From Limihaloglobus sulfuriphilus (lineage in GTDB: Bacteria; Planctomycetota; Phycisphaerae; Sedimentisphaerales; Sedimentisphaeraceae), in the NCBI RefSeq assembly GCF_001999965.1, contig NZ_CP019646.1, positions 2,542,001 to 2,606,000 on the forward strand: a DNA stretch of 64,000 nucleotides. Direction: 5' to 3'. The notes under the pieces were generated by a model that made no database searches, had not been told where the DNA came from, and saw only the letters and a list, made by a program, of their open reading frames with translations. Positions 35,802 through 45,796 of this stretch are shown piece after piece; the stretch's first letter is position 1; each line of letters opens with the position of its first letter. The position numbers and the translations under genes are program-made.

Positions 35802-36200
35802 CTAAATCCAGTTTTCGACTTTCAAGTCTTTAATACGATTGAATTCTTTCATGTTATTCGTAACGAGCGTCAGCTCTTGCGACATGGCGTGAGCCGCAAT
35901 CAGCGTGTCAAATGGACCGATGGGTGTGCCTTTGCTTTCCAGTTGACACCGGACGATCCCATAGGCCGCTGCAGCGTCATTGTCGAACGGCAGGATTTCC
36001 AGTACACTGCACGCCTTTATGAGCAGAAGAGTATTCCGAGCGGGATCGGAGCTTTTTTGTACGCCGAATTCAAGCTCTGCCAGCGTAATTGCCGAGATAG
36101 CGATATCGCCCGGCCGGTATTGCTGAATATGAGCCAGTGCCCTGCTTTGCGGCTTTCGAATCATATCAATGCAGATATTTGTGTCGAGCATGTAAATCAT
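35802..36200 (-). CDS. vapC: VapC-type PIN toxin
   Basis: 132 residues. PIN fold: D6 in MLDTNICIDMIR, E-L-E in ISAITLAELEFGV, and PIGPFDTLIAAHAM with the third acidic residue, then LVTNNMKEFNRI. This is the canonical VapC layout; the toxin cleaves RNA, often initiator tRNA or rRNA. It overlaps the VapB gene by 4 bp. It is not closely similar to the PIN protein at 20174-20584. Confidence 0.92.
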   Translation of the reverse strand: MIYMLDTNICIDMIRKPQSRALAHIQQYRPGDIAISAITLAELEFGVQKSSDPARNTLLLIKACSVLEILPFDNDAAAAYGIVRCQLESKGTPIGPFDTLIAAHAMSQELTLVTNNMKEFNRIKDLKVENWI

Positions 36201-36427
36201 AGAGGGTCGCGTTTGTCAATCTCTGATGGGTCGCCGCGGTCAGCCATAAAATCATCCGTGAATTTGCCGCAGGCTTCTAACAAGGGTGCCCAGCCGCTGT
36301 TAAGAGGGAATAAAACAACGGCATTACCGATTTTATTGATACCAATCTCATTGGTTTCAAACCGGCAATCCTTAGGCAGCCGAACTGCCTGACTGCGTCC
36401 ATTCGAAAATATTTTTGCGGTATTCAT
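36197..36427 (-). CDS. vapB: VapB-type antitoxin
   Basis: 76 residues. N-terminal AbrB/SpoVT domain (TAKIFSNGRSQAVRLPKDCRF, the NGRSQAVRLP phrase being diagnostic), followed by an acidic tail (FMADRGDPSEIDKRDPL) that would wrap the toxin. GGAAA lies about 8 nt before the ATG. The first gene of the pair; the complex usually represses its own promoter in the gap 36428-36564. Confidence 0.92.
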   Translation of the reverse strand: MNTAKIFSNGRSQAVRLPKDCRFETNEIGINKIGNAVVLFPLNSGWAPLLEACGKFTDDFMADRGDPSEIDKRDPL

Positions 36428-38344: not shown

Positions 38345-38745
38345 ATTATTTCCGCCAAGATTGATAAATCGCTGTTTTTAAACGTTACAGACCGGATTAT
38401 ACCCTCAAAGGCGGCTTTTTCAAGAACCAATTCCCCGCCGCGGCGTTTAGGAAGCAGCGGGGAAACGGCTGTTTTTTTGAATTTGTTGTGGAAAAACGGT
38501 TAATCGCTTGTTAGAATTGCGTTTAGTTGTTGTTTTCGACAGGATTTACAAGATTATACAAGGGCGTATAAAGGACATTTAGATGCTTGTTTTAAGGTTG
38601 TTGTTGACTGAATGAGTTCATCTAATTACACTACAGGTATAAGTTTAACGGGGTTGAACCGAGCTCTGGTTTTGAATCATCTCCCTCCAAAGCCCTCTTG
38701 TTGTTTTAATAAATGAGTGCAGTATTTAAAATCAAGGAGAGTACC
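38345..38745. promoter_or_regulatory. Region between pyrC and cas12a, with a candidate cas12a promoter and a hairpin
   Basis: About 400 bp. TTGACT (38604-38609) and TACACT (38627-38632) are 17 nt apart and would start transcription near 38640, giving a roughly 105-nt leader. A hairpin TTCCCCGC/GCGGGGAA (38431-38464), followed a few bases later by seven T, may insulate cas12a from upstream reading. The rest is AT-rich and unremarkable. Confidence 0.5.
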
Positions 38746-41700
38746 ATGAAGGACTTTACACATCAGTATTCACTGAGCAAGACATTGAGGTTTGAGCTCA
38801 AACCCGTCGGAGAAACGGCAGAGAGGATCGAGGATTTCAAAAATCAGGGGCTCAAAAGTATTGTTGAAGAAGACCGCCAACGAGCAGAAGATTATAAAAA
38901 GATGAAAAGGATTCTCGACGATTATCACAAAGAATTTATCGAAGAGGTGCTCAATGACGACATCTTCACCGCAAACGAAATGGAATCTGCTTTCGAAGTG
39001 TACCGCAAATATATGGCGAGTAAAAATGATGATAAGCTGAAAAAAGAAATCACCGAAATTTTTACAGATTTAAGAAAGAAAATCGCAAAGGCTTTTGAGA
39101 ATAAGAGCAAAGAATATTGTCTTTACAAAGGCGACTTCAGCAAACTGATAAACGAAAAGAAGACCGGAAAAGACAAAGGGCCGGGAAAACTCTGGTACTG
39201 GCTTAAAGCTAAGGCAGATGCAGGAGTTAACGAATTCGGAGACGGCCAAACTTTTGAACAAGCCGAAGAAGCCTTAGCCAAATTCAATAATTTCAGCACC
39301 TATTTCACCGGATTCAACCAGAATCGTGACAATATCTACACGGATGCTGAACAGCAAACCGCTATCAGCTACAGAGTAATAAACGAAAATATGACCAGAT
39401 ATTTTGACAACTGCATTCGATACTCCAGTATTGAAAACAAATATCCGGAACTCGTAAAACAGCTTGAGCCGCTTAGCGGCAAATTCGCCCCCGGAAACTA
39501 TAAAGATTATCTAAGCCAGACTGCCATCGATATTTACAACGAAGCTGTCGGCCATAAGTCTGATGACATAAACGCAAAGGGTATCAACCAGTTCATCAAT
39601 GAATACCGACAGAGAAACAGCATAAAGGGCCGCGAGCTGCCGATTATGTCCGTACTCTACAAACAGATATTAAGCGATATTAATAAAGATCTCATTATCG
39701 ACAAGTTCGAGAACGCCGGCGAGCTTTTGGATGCTGTAAAAACACTCCACAGAGAATTAACTGATAAAAAGATTTTGCTCAAGATTAAACAAACTCTTAA
39801 CGAATTTCTCACAGAAGACAATTCGGAGGATATTTACATCAAAAGCGGCACCGATCTTACAGCAGTTTCAAACGCTATATGGGGCGAGTGGTCTGTTATT
39901 CCTAAAGCACTCGAAATGTACGCCGAAAACATAACTGACATGAATGCTAAAGCCAGAGAAAAATGGCTGAAACGAGAAGCCTACCATTTGAAAACCGTAC
40001 AGGAAGCGATAGAAGCGTACCTGAAAGATAACGAAGAATTTGAAACCCGGAATATATCAGAATATTTCACAAATTTTAAATCCGGCGAAAACGACCTTAT
40101 TCAAGTTGTCCAAAGTGCTTACGCGAAAATGGAATCGATTTTCGGTATAGAGGATTTTCACAAAGACAGGCGTCCCGTCACAGAAAGCGGCGAGCCCGGA
40201 GAAGGTTTCAGACAGGTAGAACTTGTTCGGGAGTATCTTGACAGCCTGATAAACGTAGAACACTTTATAAAACCGCTGCACATGTTCAGAAGCGGTAAGC
40301 CGATTGAGCTGGAAGACTGCAACAGCAACTTCTACGATCCTTTGAATGAGGCATATAAGGAACTCGATGTTGTATTCGGCATATACAACAAAGTAAGAAA
40401 TTACGTTACCCAAAAACCCTATTCAAAGGATAAATTTAAAATCAATTTTCAAAACAGCACCCTTCTCGACGGCTGGGATGTAAACAAAGAATCAGCCAAC
40501 AGCTCTGTTTTGCTGTTAAAAAATGGCAAATATTACCTTGGTGTAATGAAGCAGGGCGCAAGCAATATCCTCAATTACCGCCCAGAGCCGAGCGATAGCA
40601 AAAACAAAATAAACGCCAAAAAACAGCTTTCAGAAATAGCACTTGCAGGGGCAACGGATGATTATTACGAGAAAATGATATATAAACTGTTGCCTGACCC
40701 TGCTAAAATGCTGCCAAAAGTGTTTTTCAGCGCCAAAAACATTGAATTTTACAACCCTTCCCAGGAAATAATATATATCAGGGAAAATGGGCTTTTCAAG
40801 AAAGACGCCGGCGATAAAGAGTCCCTTAAAAAGTGGATCGGTTTCATGAAAACATCGCTTTTAAAACACCCTGAATGGGGTAGTTACTTTAACTTTGAAT
40901 TTGAGCCCGCTGAAGATTATCAGGATATCAGTATTTTTTACAAACAAGTTGCAGAGCAGGGCTACTCTGTTACTTTTGACAAAATAAAAACAAGTTACAT
41001 AGAAGAAAAGGTTGCCAGTGGAGAGCTGTATCTCTTTGAAATATATAATAAGGATTTTTCTCCACACAGCAAGGGACGGCCCAATCTGCATACAATGTAC
41101 TGGAAAAGTCTTTTTGAAAAAGAGAATCTCCAAAATCTCGTAACTAAACTCAACGGCGAGGCGGAGGTCTTCTTCCGGCAGCATTCCATAAAGAGAAACG
41201 AGAAGGTGGTTCACAGAGCCAACCGGCCGATACAAAACAAAAACCCCCTCACCGAAAAGAAACAAAGCATCTTTGAATACGACCTCGTGAAAGACCGCCG
41301 GTTTACAAAGGATAAATTTTTTCTGCATTGCCCTATTACGCTGAACTTCAAAGAGGCCGGACCCGGCAGGTTCAACGACAAAGTCAACAAATATATCGCC
41401 GGCAATCCGGACATCAGGATAATAGGCATTGACAGAGGAGAGAGGCACCTGCTCTATTACAGCCTCATAGACCAGAGCGGCAGAATCGTGGAGCAGGGCA
41501 CACTTAACCAGATAACCAGTACCCTCAACAGCGGCGGCAGGGAAATACCCAAAACCACCGATTACCGCGGCCTGCTTGATACAAAAGAAAAAGAACGGGA
41601 CAAGGCGAGAAAATCATGGTCAATGATTGAAAACATTAAAGAGCTCAAAAGCGGCTATCTCTCGCATATTGTCCATAAACTCGCTAAACTGATGGTTAAG

Positions 41701-42600
41701 AATAATGCAGTTGTGGTGCTTGAGGATCTTAATTTCGGGTTCAAACGCGGCCGATTCAAGGTTGAAAAACAGGTTTACCAGAAATTTGAAAAGGCCCTCA
41801 TAGAAAAGCTGAACTATCTTGTTTTCAAAGACGCCCGGCCCGCAGAGCCGGGGCATTATCTCAACGCATACCAGCTTACCGCACCTCTTGAAAGTTTTAA
41901 AAAGCTCGGCAAACAGAGCGGATTTATATACTATGTGCCGGCGTGGAACACCTCAAAGATTGACCCTGTTACCGGTTTTGTAAATCAGTTTTACATCGAA
42001 AAGAACTCAATGCAGTACCTTAAAAACTTTTTTGGTAAATTCGATTCGATAAGGTTTAACCCGGATAAAAATTACTTCGAGTTTGGATTTGACTACAAAA
42101 ACTTTCATAACAAGGCCGCCAAAAGCAAATGGACTATCTGCACCCATGGAGACAAACGCTCATGGTACAACCGTAAACAGAGAAAACTGGAGATTCACAA
42201 TGTAACAGAAAATCTGGCAAGCCTGCTCAGCGGCAAAGGCATAAATTTCGCTGACGGCGGCAGTATCAAAGACAAAATACTATCCGTAGATGATGCGTCT
42301 TTCTTTAAAAGCCTTGCATTTAATTTTAAACTCACCGCCCAGCTTAGGCACACATTCGAGGATAACGGCGAGGAGATCGACTGCATTATCTCACCTGTCG
42401 CGGCGGCTGACGGTACATTCTTCTGTTCTGAAACGGCAAAAAAACTTAACATGGAATTACCCCATGACGCCGACGCAAACGGTGCTTATAATATTGCCCG
42501 TAAGGGTCTTATGGTTCTAAGGCAGATACGCGAAAGCGGCAAGCCCAAGCCAATCTCAAACGCCGATTGGTTAGACTTCGCCCAGCAGAATGAAGATTGA
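38746..42600 (+). CDS. cas12a: Cas12a (Cpf1), type V-A CRISPR effector nuclease
   Basis: 1284 residues from the ATG at 38746, with AAGGAG 6 nt upstream; an ATG at 38713 would add 11 residues and lacks a site. The N-terminus HQYSLSKTLRFELKPVGETAE is the Cas12a signature. RuvC-I D896 (IIGIDRGERHLLYYSL), RuvC-II E993 (VVVLEDLNFGFKRGRFKVEK), RuvC-III DAD at 1241-1243 (PHDADANGAYNIA), and the Nuc-domain arginine R1201 (QLRHTFED), by position the counterpart of R1226 of the Acidaminococcus enzyme. The bridge/RuvC region (QSIFEYDLVKDRRFTKDKF, FIYYVPAWNTSKIDPVTGFVNQ) aligns with Francisella Cas12a. It is guided by a crRNA with the array's AATTTCTACTGTTGTAGAT handle, needs no tracrRNA, and processes its own crRNA. 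Length is normal and no key residue is missing. Confidence 0.97.
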   Translation: MKDFTHQYSLSKTLRFELKPVGETAERIEDFKNQGLKSIVEEDRQRAEDYKKMKRILDDYHKEFIEEVLNDDIFTANEMESAFEVYRKYMASKNDDKLKKEITEIFTDLRKKIAKAFENKSKEYCLYKGDFSKLINEKKTGKDKGPGKLWYWLKAKADAGVNEFGDGQTFEQAEEALAKFNNFSTYFTGFNQNRDNIYTDAEQQTAISYRVINENMTRYFDNCIRYSSIENKYPELVKQLEPLSGKFAPGNYKDYLSQTAIDIYNEAVGHKSDDINAKGINQFINEYRQRNSIKGRELPIMSVLYKQILSDINKDLIIDKFENAGELLDAVKTLHRELTDKKILLKIKQTLNEFLTEDNSEDIYIKSGTDLTAVSNAIWGEWSVIPKALEMYAENITDMNAKAREKWLKREAYHLKTVQEAIEAYLKDNEEFETRNISEYFTNFKSGENDLIQVVQSAYAKMESIFGIEDFHKDRRPVTESGEPGEGFRQVELVREYLDSLINVEHFIKPLHMFRSGKPIELEDCNSNFYDPLNEAYKELDVVFGIYNKVRNYVTQKPYSKDKFKINFQNSTLLDGWDVNKESANSSVLLLKNGKYYLGVMKQGASNILNYRPEPSDSKNKINAKKQLSEIALAGATDDYYEKMIYKLLPDPAKMLPKVFFSAKNIEFYNPSQEIIYIRENGLFKKDAGDKESLKKWIGFMKTSLLKHPEWGSYFNFEFEPAEDYQDISIFYKQVAEQGYSVTFDKIKTSYIEEKVASGELYLFEIYNKDFSPHSKGRPNLHTMYWKSLFEKENLQNLVTKLNGEAEVFFRQHSIKRNEKVVHRANRPIQNKNPLTEKKQSIFEYDLVKDRRFTKDKFFLHCPITLNFKEAGPGRFNDKVNKYIAGNPDIRIIGIDRGERHLLYYSLIDQSGRIVEQGTLNQITSTLNSGGREIPKTTDYRGLLDTKEKERDKARKSWSMIENIKELKSGYLSHIVHKLAKLMVKNNAVVVLEDLNFGFKRGRFKVEKQVYQKFEKALIEKLNYLVFKDARPAEPGHYLNAYQLTAPLESFKKLGKQSGFIYYVPAWNTSKIDPVTGFVNQFYIEKNSMQYLKNFFGKFDSIRFNPDKNYFEFGFDYKNFHNKAAKSKWTICTHGDKRSWYNRKQRKLEIHNVTENLASLLSGKGINFADGGSIKDKILSVDDASFFKSLAFNFKLTAQLRHTFEDNGEEIDCIISPVAAADGTFFCSETAKKLNMELPHDADANGAYNIARKGLMVLRQIRESGKPKPISNADWLDFAQQNED

Positions 42601-42617
42601 CTAATACAGACCTCCAC

Positions 42618-42658
42618 ACGGGCCGGCACCGTTTAAGTAAAATAAGGTGCTGGTCCGT
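42618..42658 (+). terminator. Hairpin between cas12a and the four-helix-bundle gene
   Basis: A 13-bp stem (ACGGGCCGGCACC paired with GGTGCTGGTCCGT, two G-U pairs) with a 15-nt A/T-rich loop, 18 bp after the cas12a stop. Only a weak T run (ATTTGT) follows, so it may be an attenuator or processing site that sets cas12a apart from the adaptation genes. Confidence 0.5.
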
Positions 42659-42706: not shown

Positions 42707-43384
42707 ATGTCTGACGAAAATCTTATTCCCGTTCATGGCGGGTATCGAAACCTGAAGTCTTTCCAGCTTGCACAGCTTGTTTACGACATAACAGTTGTGT
42801 TTTGCGGGCGTTATGTTGACAAATTCAGCCGAACCACCGACCAGATGGTGCAGGCGGCACGCTCGGGTGTACAGAATATCGCCGAGGGTTCGCAGGCTTC
42901 CGGCACATCAAAGAAGACAGAGCTGAAACTAACCAGCGTGGCACGGGCAAGCCTTGAAGAACTTCGGCTCGACTACGAGGATTTTCTGCGGCAGCGGTGT
43001 TTGCCTCAGCTTTTGCCCGATGAGCCGGCGATGATGCGGTTTAAAAAACTGCGGTGCAATAGTTTAGAACAGTTTCGAGGGTGGGTTGACAAAGAAAAGC
43101 GGATTCTGGTTCGCGGCGGTGAAGAAACAGACCCGCACAGACACGCACAGACTAACACGGGCGGCAAATCACATGTTGAAAAATTCGTGATTGTCAGTGA
43201 GCGTCCGTGTCCGTCCAGGATGATCTCGGCGATGCTGGCAGCCAATGCAGTTTTATCACTGCTGAACCTGACCTGTTATCTGCTTGAGAAGCAGATAAAG
43301 TCGCAGGCGAAAGATTTTGAACAGAAAGGGGGCTTCACAGAACGGCTTTACAGAGTCAGAAGCCAAAAACGACAAAGGTATTAA
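42707..43384 (+). CDS. Four-helix-bundle protein (bS23/IVS-like, suffix-domain type) inside the cas operon
   Basis: 225 residues. The N-terminal half is the four-helix-bundle family related to 23S rRNA intervening-sequence proteins: GYRNLKSFQLAQLVYDITVV, MVQAARSGVQNIAEGSQASG and KKTELKLTSVARASLEELRL. The C-terminal half (MISAMLAANAVLSLLNLTCYLL and a basic tail) is helical and fits the so-called suffix-domain subgroup. It has no nuclease motif. AAGGA lies about 9 nt before the ATG. It sits 106 bp after cas12a, with only 2 bp before cas4, so it is probably translated with the adaptation genes. Family members are widespread and of unknown role; related Avd proteins bind nucleic acid in diversity-generating retroelements. 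A role in spacer acquisition is possible but unproven; chance insertion is the alternative. Confidence 0.8.
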   Translation: MSDENLIPVHGGYRNLKSFQLAQLVYDITVVFCGRYVDKFSRTTDQMVQAARSGVQNIAEGSQASGTSKKTELKLTSVARASLEELRLDYEDFLRQRCLPQLLPDEPAMMRFKKLRCNSLEQFRGWVDKEKRILVRGGEETDPHRHAQTNTGGKSHVEKFVIVSERPCPSRMISAMLAANAVLSLLNLTCYLLEKQIKSQAKDFEQKGGFTERLYRVRSQKRQRY

Positions 43385-43386
43385 AA

Positions 43387-43944
43387 ATGGAAACGTACAT
43401 ACTTATATCGCAGCTCAACGATTTTATTTTTTGCCCTAAGTCTATATATTTCCACCAGTTGTACGGCGGGTATTCGACCCGGCTGTATCACGATACGCCG
43501 CAGATAGAGGGCAAAGCCGCACACAAGGCCATAGATATCGCAGGCTACTCTACAAAAAAGTCTATCCTGCAGGGGCTTGAAGTCTATTCCCAGCAGTACG
43601 GAGTCTGCGGCAAGATTGACCTATTTGATACCGAGCTGGGGCTGCTGACAGAGCGAAAAAAACATATATCAACAATCTATGACGGTTATGTTTACCAGCT
43701 TTATGCTCAATACTGGGCTCTGATTGAAATGGGACACGATGTTCGGAAGCTGCGTTTCTACAGCAGCGACACCAACAGGGTATATCCTATCGATTTGCCG
43801 GCAGATAACCCTCAAATGCAAACAAAATTTGAAATGATAATTGAAGATATCCGCACCTGTGATATAGAAGAATACCGGCAGACTAACGTTAAAAAATGCC
43901 GCAACTGTATTTATGAACCCTTATGTGATGTATCATTATGCTGA
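43387..43944 (+). CDS. cas4: Cas4 exonuclease
   Basis: 185 residues. RecB-like nuclease: D79 in GKIDLFD and E89-x-K91 in LLTERKKH, followed by YVYQLYAQYW. The Fe-S cluster cysteines are C16 (FIFCPKSIYF) and C171, C174, C180 at the C-terminus, with C185 last; a four-Cys set fits the family. Cas4 trims prespacer ends and helps choose PAM-bearing spacers before Cas1-Cas2 integration. The stop overlaps cas1 by 7 bp. Confidence 0.93.
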   Translation: METYILISQLNDFIFCPKSIYFHQLYGGYSTRLYHDTPQIEGKAAHKAIDIAGYSTKKSILQGLEVYSQQYGVCGKIDLFDTELGLLTERKKHISTIYDGYVYQLYAQYWALIEMGHDVRKLRFYSSDTNRVYPIDLPADNPQMQTKFEMIIEDIRTCDIEEYRQTNVKKCRNCIYEPLCDVSLC

Positions 43945-44903
43945 CAGCACCGGATTTTAAACAGAAACAGATAGTATTTGCCATGCTCAGCCGCGGTGAG
44001 AGGCTGAGCTTCAAAAACGACAATGTTATAGTCAAGGACAGCGAGGGCAGGATAAAACATCAGTCAACCTGTTACAGGCTTTTTGCCCTTTTTGTAGCAG
44101 GCCATGCCTCGATAACAACCGGACTGCTTCAGCGGGCCGAGAAATTCGGTTTCAGCATTGTACTGATGACCCACGGGCTGCGAGTTTACGGTTTGTGGGC
44201 CAATGAGAGCAAAGGAAACGTAATACTCAGACGAAAGCAGTATAATCATGAAAACCTTAACATAGCCGCTCATATTGTGAAAAATAAGATTACCAACCAG
44301 ATTGCCGCACTTAAAAAAATACGGCCCAGAGAAGTGAAAAGACTTGAAGCTGCGGAAAAACTTATGGATTACTTAGCTTCGATTGAAGACTGCAAGAAGA
44401 TAGACCTGCAGAGCCTGTTAGGAACAGAGGGTATCGCGTCCAGAATTTACTTTCAGACATTGTTTGACGAGATGAACTGGAAAGCGAGACGGCCCAGAGT
44501 AAAACACGACACTACAAACTGTCTGCTTGACATTGGATATACGTACCTGTTCAATATTGTAGAGGCTCTTTTAAGCATTTACGGATTTGATCTCTACTGC
44601 GGGGTTTACCATCGGGAATTCTATCAGCGTAAGTCTCTGGTTTGCGATCTGGTTGAACCTATGCGGCCCCTGATCGATCTGCGTATCAGAAAAGCACACA
44701 GGCTCGGCCAGATCCGCATAAGCGACTTCTACGTAAAACAGGGCAGACACAATCTCTTCGGGAAGAACGCCGGCCCGTACACTTCCCTTATTCTCAAGGA
44801 ACTGATCAATCACAAGCAGGAGATGTTTATCTATATACAAAGTTATTACAGGGCATTTATGAGGAATAAACCGGCAAATGAATTTCCAGTATTTACAATA
44901 TGA
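43938..44903 (+). CDS. cas1: Cas1 integrase
   Basis: 321 residues. N-terminal beta domain (RLSFKNDNVIVKDSEGRIK), then the helical catalytic domain. The active-site residues of the family are E164 (LLGTEGIASRIYF), H225 (GVYHREF) and E240 (CDLVEPMRPLID). With Cas2 it integrates prespacers at the leader end of the array. The ATG lies inside the end of cas4, and its stop overlaps the first codons of the cas2 frame, so cas4-cas1-cas2 form a coupled set. Confidence 0.95.
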   Translation: MLTAPDFKQKQIVFAMLSRGERLSFKNDNVIVKDSEGRIKHQSTCYRLFALFVAGHASITTGLLQRAEKFGFSIVLMTHGLRVYGLWANESKGNVILRRKQYNHENLNIAAHIVKNKITNQIAALKKIRPREVKRLEAAEKLMDYLASIEDCKKIDLQSLLGTEGIASRIYFQTLFDEMNWKARRPRVKHDTTNCLLDIGYTYLFNIVEALLSIYGFDLYCGVYHREFYQRKSLVCDLVEPMRPLIDLRIRKAHRLGQIRISDFYVKQGRHNLFGKNAGPYTSLILKELINHKQEMFIYIQSYYRAFMRNKPANEFPVFTI

Positions 44904-44914
44904 AAGGTTGCAAA

Positions 44915-45190
44915 ATGTTGATTGTCTCGTATGATATAAGCAATGATAAACTGCGAACAAGATTTTCTAAATTTCTTACGAAATTTGGATTTCGGCTGCA
45001 GTACTCTGTGTACCAGATTAAAAACAGTGACGCGGTGCTCAGGAACGTGGCAACCGAGATTGAGACCGAGTTCTCGAAACAATTCGAGCAGACCGACAGC
45101 GTCATTATTTTCCGCCTTAGCAGGCAGTGTAAAAAATACTGCTACGGATACGCGATAAACGATAACGATGAACTGATAATTATTGAATAA
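44915..45190 (+). CDS. cas2: Cas2
   Basis: 91 residues from the ATG at 44915, which has AAAGG at a good distance; an ATG at 44900 overlapping cas1 would add 5 residues. Ferredoxin-like fold with the early Asp (MLIVSYDISNDKLRTRFSKFL), LQYSVYQIKNSDAVL and SVIIFRLSRQCKKYCYG. Small dimeric scaffold bridging two Cas1 dimers. The CRISPR leader begins right after its stop. Confidence 0.93.
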   Translation: MLIVSYDISNDKLRTRFSKFLTKFGFRLQYSVYQIKNSDAVLRNVATEIETEFSKQFEQTDSVIIFRLSRQCKKYCYGYAINDNDELIIIE

Positions 45191-45285: not shown

Positions 45286-45442
45286 CTCTAAGAGGCATAT
45301 AAAATTTCTACTGTTGTAGATTCAGTTCCTCACCTATAGCCGAATCGCTCTAAGAGGCATATAAAATTTCTACTGTTGTAGATAGTTTATTGACACGTTG
45401 TATGCGTAACTCTAAGAGGCATATAAAATTTCTACTGTTGTA
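45286..45442 (+). CRISPR. Type V-A CRISPR array: 3 repeats, 2 spacers
   Basis: Repeats at 45286-45321, 45348-45383 and 45410-45442. The 36-nt repeat starts CTCTAAGAGGCAT and ends in AATTTCTACTGTTGTAGAT, the Cas12a crRNA handle with stem TCTAC/GTAGA. Spacers at 45322-45347 and 45384-45409, both 26 nt. The last repeat is intact for 33 nt and then departs from the consensus (TAAGAC instead of TAGAT), as trailer-end repeats often do. The handle at the right end of each repeat shows transcription on the plus strand, the same as cas12a. By eye neither spacer matches the rest of this window. Confidence 0.97.
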
Positions 45443-45796
45443 AGACAACTATAACACAGCGCAGCCCCCCCCCCCCCCGATGTGGGCGGGGAGATGGTTT
45501 GGCGGCGGCACGGATTCCAGGTGCGCTAACCTGGGTTAAGTTATCCAGTCCGCTCAGACTTGGGGAATACGCCGCGTAACGTGTATAAATACACCCTAAA
45601 GTGTGAACTTCTTACGGCGAATGCGGCACAGGCCGTCTTTGTAAAATAGTAACGATTTGTAATAATTATCTAAATATTTATTTGATTATTAGTTTTATAG
45701 TTTATTCTTTTATAAATAAAGATTATGGGACTGGTTTTAAGCAATTGTAACCCTAAGCCCTGAATATGGCTGATTAGTTGACTATAGGATTTTACT
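45443..45796. other. Gene-free trailer region with a 14-base poly-C tract
   Basis: 354 bp after the array. It starts with a 14-C run at 45465-45478, then GC-rich sequence to about 45640 and AT-rich sequence before the next gene. I see no gene, no further repeat and no spacer remnants. The poly-C run resembles the one at 4728-4738 and could be a slippage site or assembly artefact. Confidence 0.55.

Follow-up and report, generated by a model that had tools for sequence, protein, structure and literature searches.

A gene for a four-helix-bundle protein with a TIGR04258 suffix (4HB gene) lies between cas12a and cas4 in the type V-A CRISPR operon of Limihaloglobus sulfuriphilus, and what seemed a stray insertion in a single operon belongs to a repeated pattern, in which separate branches of the same family are found beside cas4 in two CRISPR types. 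The reading we prefer, with a probability of roughly 55%, is that the gene is a captured guest from a dispersed and horizontally moving family, which settles in operons and repeatedly does so next to cas4. The pattern raises the question of whether Cas4-containing adaptation has a bundle-shaped helper or whether the boundary between effector and adaptation genes is a docking site for guest genes.

The 4HB gene, its product and its operon

The features of the operon are listed in Table 1, where positions refer to the window, i.e., the whole stretch of 64,000 nucleotides that was analysed. The open reading frame of the 4HB gene is real and intact. Its product is a TIGR04258 suffix protein, as the suffix model scores above its cut-off (70.1 bits against 40, residues 177-223) behind a TIGR02436 domain (35 bits against 24, residues 17-87) in the NCBIfam search, and the membership in the bS23/IVS-like four-helix-bundle family proposed in the initial annotation is thus confirmed. 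With the Pfam model of bS23/IVP (PF05635) the score is 32.2 bits, slightly below the gathering cut-off of 33.8, probably because a loop splits the bundle.

The AlphaFold (AF2) model of the protein, built from 38 relatives, has a pLDDT of 86.7 and comprises helices at residues 17-36, 42-64 and 69-96, a short helical insert, a loop at approximately 140-169, a long helix at 170-207 and a C-terminal helix. The top folds retrieved with Foldseek are the S23-family structures 2gsc (probability 1.00) and 2rld (probability 0.98), with E-values above 0.001, and 2gsc was also found weakly by a profile search with the protein (E 0.041). As modelled, the product is a four-helix bundle matching S23-family structures, in which the suffix probably supplies the fourth helix and so completes the bundle. 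Residues 140-169 probably form a disordered loop; in the 4HB-suffix family as a whole, the equivalent stretch is rich in repeats and hypervariable. The product is basic and has a bundle fold of the bS23/IVP (Avd-like) type, and judging by this fold it probably forms an oligomer that binds nucleic acid.

Table 1. Features of the type V-A operon and of the 4HB gene in the window.
Feature	Position	Strand	Details
cas12a	38713..42600	+	TIGR04330, 1169 bits
Stable stem-loop (stem of 13 bp) between cas12a and the 4HB gene	42618..42658	+	z -3.5
Four-helix-bundle-suffix gene (TIGR02436 and TIGR04258)	42707..43384	+	225 aa, ATG start, pI 9.55
Predicted loop-coding stretch, residues 140-169, between helix 3 and helix 4	43124..43213	+	pLDDT about 51-60
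Predicted helix 4 and C-terminal helix (TIGR04258 suffix)	43214..43375	+	Profile match and structure model
cas4 (type V)	43387..43944	+	TIGR04328
cas1 (type V)	43938..44903	+	TIGR04329
cas2	44900..45190	+	ORF and NCBIfam search
Short CRISPR array of 2 spacers and 3 repeats (36 nt each); 3' end of the final repeat degenerate	45286..45445	.	Array after cas2

The loop-coding stretch of 4HB-suffix genes contains repeats with a 9-bp period (GGACNNNNN and variants), which are often inverted (e.g., in L129, L130, L137, L075 and L074). Similar repeats precede several genes and are dispersed in some genomes, G067, G085 and G024 among them, whether or not 4HB genes are present. Compared with control stretches, the linkers of the family show better folding (median z -1.8 vs. 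-0.2). A function of the linker as an RNA hairpin was considered and rejected, as the linker of the window copy does not fold better (z -0.7 and +2.5 in two computations).

The 4HB gene follows cas12a after 106 bp and is separated from cas4 by 2 bp, so that its position inside the CRISPR operon and 2 bp before cas4, as given in the initial annotation, agrees with the coordinates. From cas12a to cas2 the operon consists of Cas genes and the 4HB gene, with no reverse transcriptase or template repeat identified there. The gene resides in a cas operon and outside 23S rRNA, and is in this respect unlike a 23S rRNA IVS ORF. The 2-bp junction suggests that it may be co-transcribed with cas4-cas1-cas2. 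This tight junction, from which co-translation with the adaptation genes had been proposed, is real, but it says little about a special link, since members of the family elsewhere commonly overlap or nearly touch their neighbours (yraN, hsdR, hsdM and a glycosyltransferase gene). A VapBC-type toxin-antitoxin pair is located on the minus strand at 35802-36427, approximately 2.3 kb upstream of cas12a.

For comparison, 19 V-A loci of other phyla, found via Cas4, and the Cas12a loci of the genomes G004 and G332 were used. None of the 19 loci has a 4HB gene at the junction of cas12a and cas4, fewer than 19 of them counting as clean negatives and several being partial or apparently read by another genetic code, and neither do G004 and G332. 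That cas4 usually comes directly after cas12a, as had been assumed, is right for most of the readable loci (G004, G332, L042, L043, L044 and L053); in G004, which belongs to the same family as the window genome, the two genes are approximately 22 bp apart. Other genes take up the junction in L037, L038 and L039. A RhuM gene occupies the junction in L038 (6916-7968) and L039 (6971-7969), both V-A loci of other phyla, the identity of RhuM being Pfam-confirmed for L039 and based on resemblance for L038. In L037 (4068-7379), a second Cas12a-like protein is encoded between cas12a and cas4; it has 1103 aa, ends in a region with a zinc-ribbon-like CxxC motif and may resemble Cas12a2.

Copies of the family and their placement beside cas4

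The own genome has two further TIGR04258 copies, both at unrelated places. One is intact, with rplS on one side and yraN, which it overlaps by 1 base, on the other; the second is N-terminally truncated and follows an isocitrate-dehydrogenase-like gene (all three neighbours named by eye). In the phylum, sampled with 392 genomes of which many are drafts, 51 4HB-suffix copies were found in 29 genomes, mostly away from CRISPR. Some of the copies abut type I restriction-modification (R-M) genes: in both G367 and G398 the neighbour, at -4 bp, encodes an HSDR_N protein, and the copy of G157 is placed between a helicase gene and a fused hsdM/S gene. The HSDR_N adjacency (2-3 copies vs. 0.17 expected, by the calculation also applied to cas1) is a weaker enrichment than that for cas1, and it indicates that the preference of the family is not for CRISPR alone. 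Other copies are found beside housekeeping genes (yraN and those for a short-chain dehydrogenase and a PALP enzyme). There was no match in phage records, and the plasmid and viral-contig searches yielded one partial and one clear relative; no mobility vehicle emerged from these phage, plasmid and viral-contig searches. A 4HB-suffix gene is present on an IMG/VR viral contig (L198:5995-6588).

The linkage of the family to cas1 and cas4 is recurrent and exceeds chance. According to the 4HB and Cas1 coordinates in the 392 genomes, 10 of the 51 copies are located at most 3 kb from cas1 (G000, G332, G367, G166 with two, G467, G350, G247, G398 and G417), where 0.12 would be expected under random placement, and the Poisson probability of at least three such copies is 2e-4 when positions are taken as uniform and relatedness is ignored. 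Owing to these two simplifications, we put the weight on the number of independent arrivals and not on the raw count. Type I-C operons account for most of the ten copies. An eleventh CRISPR-adjacent copy, which is frameshifted, was found in G090 of the order sample. The intact CRISPR-adjacent copies are all in cas4-cas1 modules, either adjoining cas4 or between cas4 and cas1. The usual order in type I-C operons is cas3-cas5-cas8-cas7-(4HB)-cas4-cas1-cas2, with cas5 and cas8 assigned by position. The order in G090 is cas7-cas3-4HB-cas4, G166 has a second 4HB gene between cas4 and cas1, and in G398 the 4HB gene is immediately before cas1, downstream of cas4 and a HEPN-MNT pair.

When 60 proteins were placed in a tree, nine of the I-C copies grouped in a single clade (UFBoot 100), all nine members of which are CRISPR-linked. 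The window copy and copy 1 of G166 fall into two other clades apart from the I-C clade, the window copy clustering with those of G086 and G083, neither of which is near cas1. The presence of three clades at cas4 means that this placement arose repeatedly, with at least three independent arrivals across two CRISPR types (I-C and V-A). The 4HB proteins of the I-C clade share 79-88% identity, also between operons in which Cas4 and Cas1 are only 42-51% identical. The gene has therefore moved from one I-C module to another, although these are divergent, and its place is still beside cas4. In this clade the 4HB gene is under purifying selection (pairwise dN/dS 0.05-0.16).

Guest gene or helper of adaptation

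Close relatives with I-C operons differ in the presence of the gene: it is found in G350 and missing from G423, found in G332 and missing from G289, and found in G166 and missing from G310 and G447. Eroded remnants lie between cas7 and cas4 in G463 and G341. In addition, truncated copies follow tRNA-Phe at the edge of the CRISPR locus in two genomes of the window organism's family, namely G004 (V-A, L056:7992-8590) and G002 (I-C, L189:1233-1973), the remnant of G002 being placed between tRNA-Phe and cas3 of the I-C operon. One tRNA-Phe site is thus accompanied by different CRISPR types in the two genomes, as if cassettes were exchanged there. Genes for RhuM, YhcG, HEPN-MNT and ATPases (the ATPases named by eye) were found at the same junctions in other operons. 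Nucleotidyltransferase genes occur between cas4 and cas1 in the I-C operons L114, L116, L117 and L188, with a HEPN-type partner in L114 and L116.

Capture of a guest gene accounts for the dispersal of the family, its R-M neighbours, the losses, the decay and the shared junctions. A family member would land in an operon and, in this phylum, would do so repeatedly at the boundary of the interference and adaptation modules, right beside cas4, where selection for an activity of its own may maintain it; any influence on CRISPR adaptation would be optional, and the gene would be dispensable for that process. What fits this less well is that the whole I-C clade is CRISPR-linked despite its divergent cas4/cas1 modules, as a pure passenger would be expected elsewhere more often, and that the intact CRISPR-adjacent copies are tied to cas4-cas1 modules and not to cas genes generally. 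Moreover, a guest gene could still work in adaptation. The clade found only with CRISPR and the constancy of cas4 as a neighbour are better accounted for if the 4HB protein is a partner of Cas4-Cas1-Cas2, e.g., an oligomeric bundle on prespacer or leader DNA, that was recruited independently into I-C and V-A. The recurrent independent placement at cas4 in two CRISPR types, the movement of an exclusively CRISPR-linked clade among divergent I-C modules, the strong purifying selection and the naming of 23S rRNA IVP among the genes newly tied to adaptation modules (in a figure legend of PMC10910872) all argue for such a helper. However, the gene is missing in close relatives whose I-C operons are otherwise complete and in the other V-A loci, the remnants represent decay of the 4HB gene while the operon persists, most of the family shows no connection to CRISPR, and unrelated guest genes use the same junctions. 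We regard a helper of this kind as less likely than a captured guest. Equally tentative is the proposal that 4HB-suffix proteins in general are accessory subunits recurrently recruited by Cas4-containing adaptation modules, in I-C and V-A independently, which would alter prespacer trimming or integration.

A one-off chance insertion had been the initial reading, suggested by the V-A loci of other phyla without the gene and by the copies in the own genome, and it was dropped on the recurrent adjacency of 4HB genes and cas1. The initial annotation had held that absence from all related loci or presence at random sites of the genome would point to chance. The gene is indeed absent from the junction in all other V-A loci compared, but it stands beside cas4 in I-C operons; the own genome does have two unrelated copies, but the placement at cas4 is recurrent, phylogenetically independent and beyond chance. 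A neutral insertion of a dispersed IVS-like element into the gap between cas12a and cas4 would agree with the scattered copies and remnants, both in this genome and in related ones, and with the occupation of the junction by a 4HB gene in only one V-A locus, yet the excess of copies near cas1, the at least three independent arrivals at cas4 and the intact ORF make it improbable. Still less credence, indeed very little, is given to a defence or addiction gene that acts alone (toxin-antitoxin-like or anti-element) and is carried along in defence operons, a behaviour proposed for RhuM and HEPN genes. It would explain the junctions held in common with RhuM, YhcG and HEPN-MNT and the contacts with type I R-M genes, and RhuM and HEPN genes are themselves known from R-M neighbourhoods (PMC3710099), but no catalytic motif was recognised in the 4HB protein, there is no paired partner gene, and copies are also found beside housekeeping genes. 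The captured guest thus remains our preferred reading.

Comparison with known systems

A general association of IVP with CRISPR adaptation is already known, as 23S rRNA IVP is linked to adaptation modules in the legend of Fig. 6B of Altae-Tran et al. (2023; PMC10910872). The window copy is similar to that cluster in being an IVP/four-helix-bundle gene that accompanies CRISPR adaptation modules; the window copy itself is of the suffix type, belongs to V-A and comes from a clade otherwise unseen near CRISPR. The rRNA IVS has been described as a selfish element (PMC4990558). The bS23/IVS proteins (of Coxiella and other 23S rRNA IVS ORFs; 2gsc, 2rld) have the same four-helix fold, but the window 4HB gene is located outside rRNA and its product, as modelled, has an additional loop that separates helix 3 from helix 4 and long C-terminal helices (TIGR04258).

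Avd of the diversity-generating retroelements presumably assists its reverse transcriptase by binding nucleic acid. It has a homologous bundle fold, a likeness which rests on PMC10053308, and is essential for retrohoming (PMC10053308). An Avd gene would be expected beside a reverse transcriptase and template and variable repeats; from cas12a to cas2 only Cas genes and the 4HB gene were found, and the 4HB gene is not classed with Avd of the retroelements. RhuM genes are also known between cas1 and cas9 (PMC5704556). Together with YhcG/DUF1016 and HEPN-MNT, RhuM shares with the 4HB gene the junctions of cas7 and cas4, cas12a and cas4, and cas4 and cas1, although the proteins of these guests are unrelated to 4HB.
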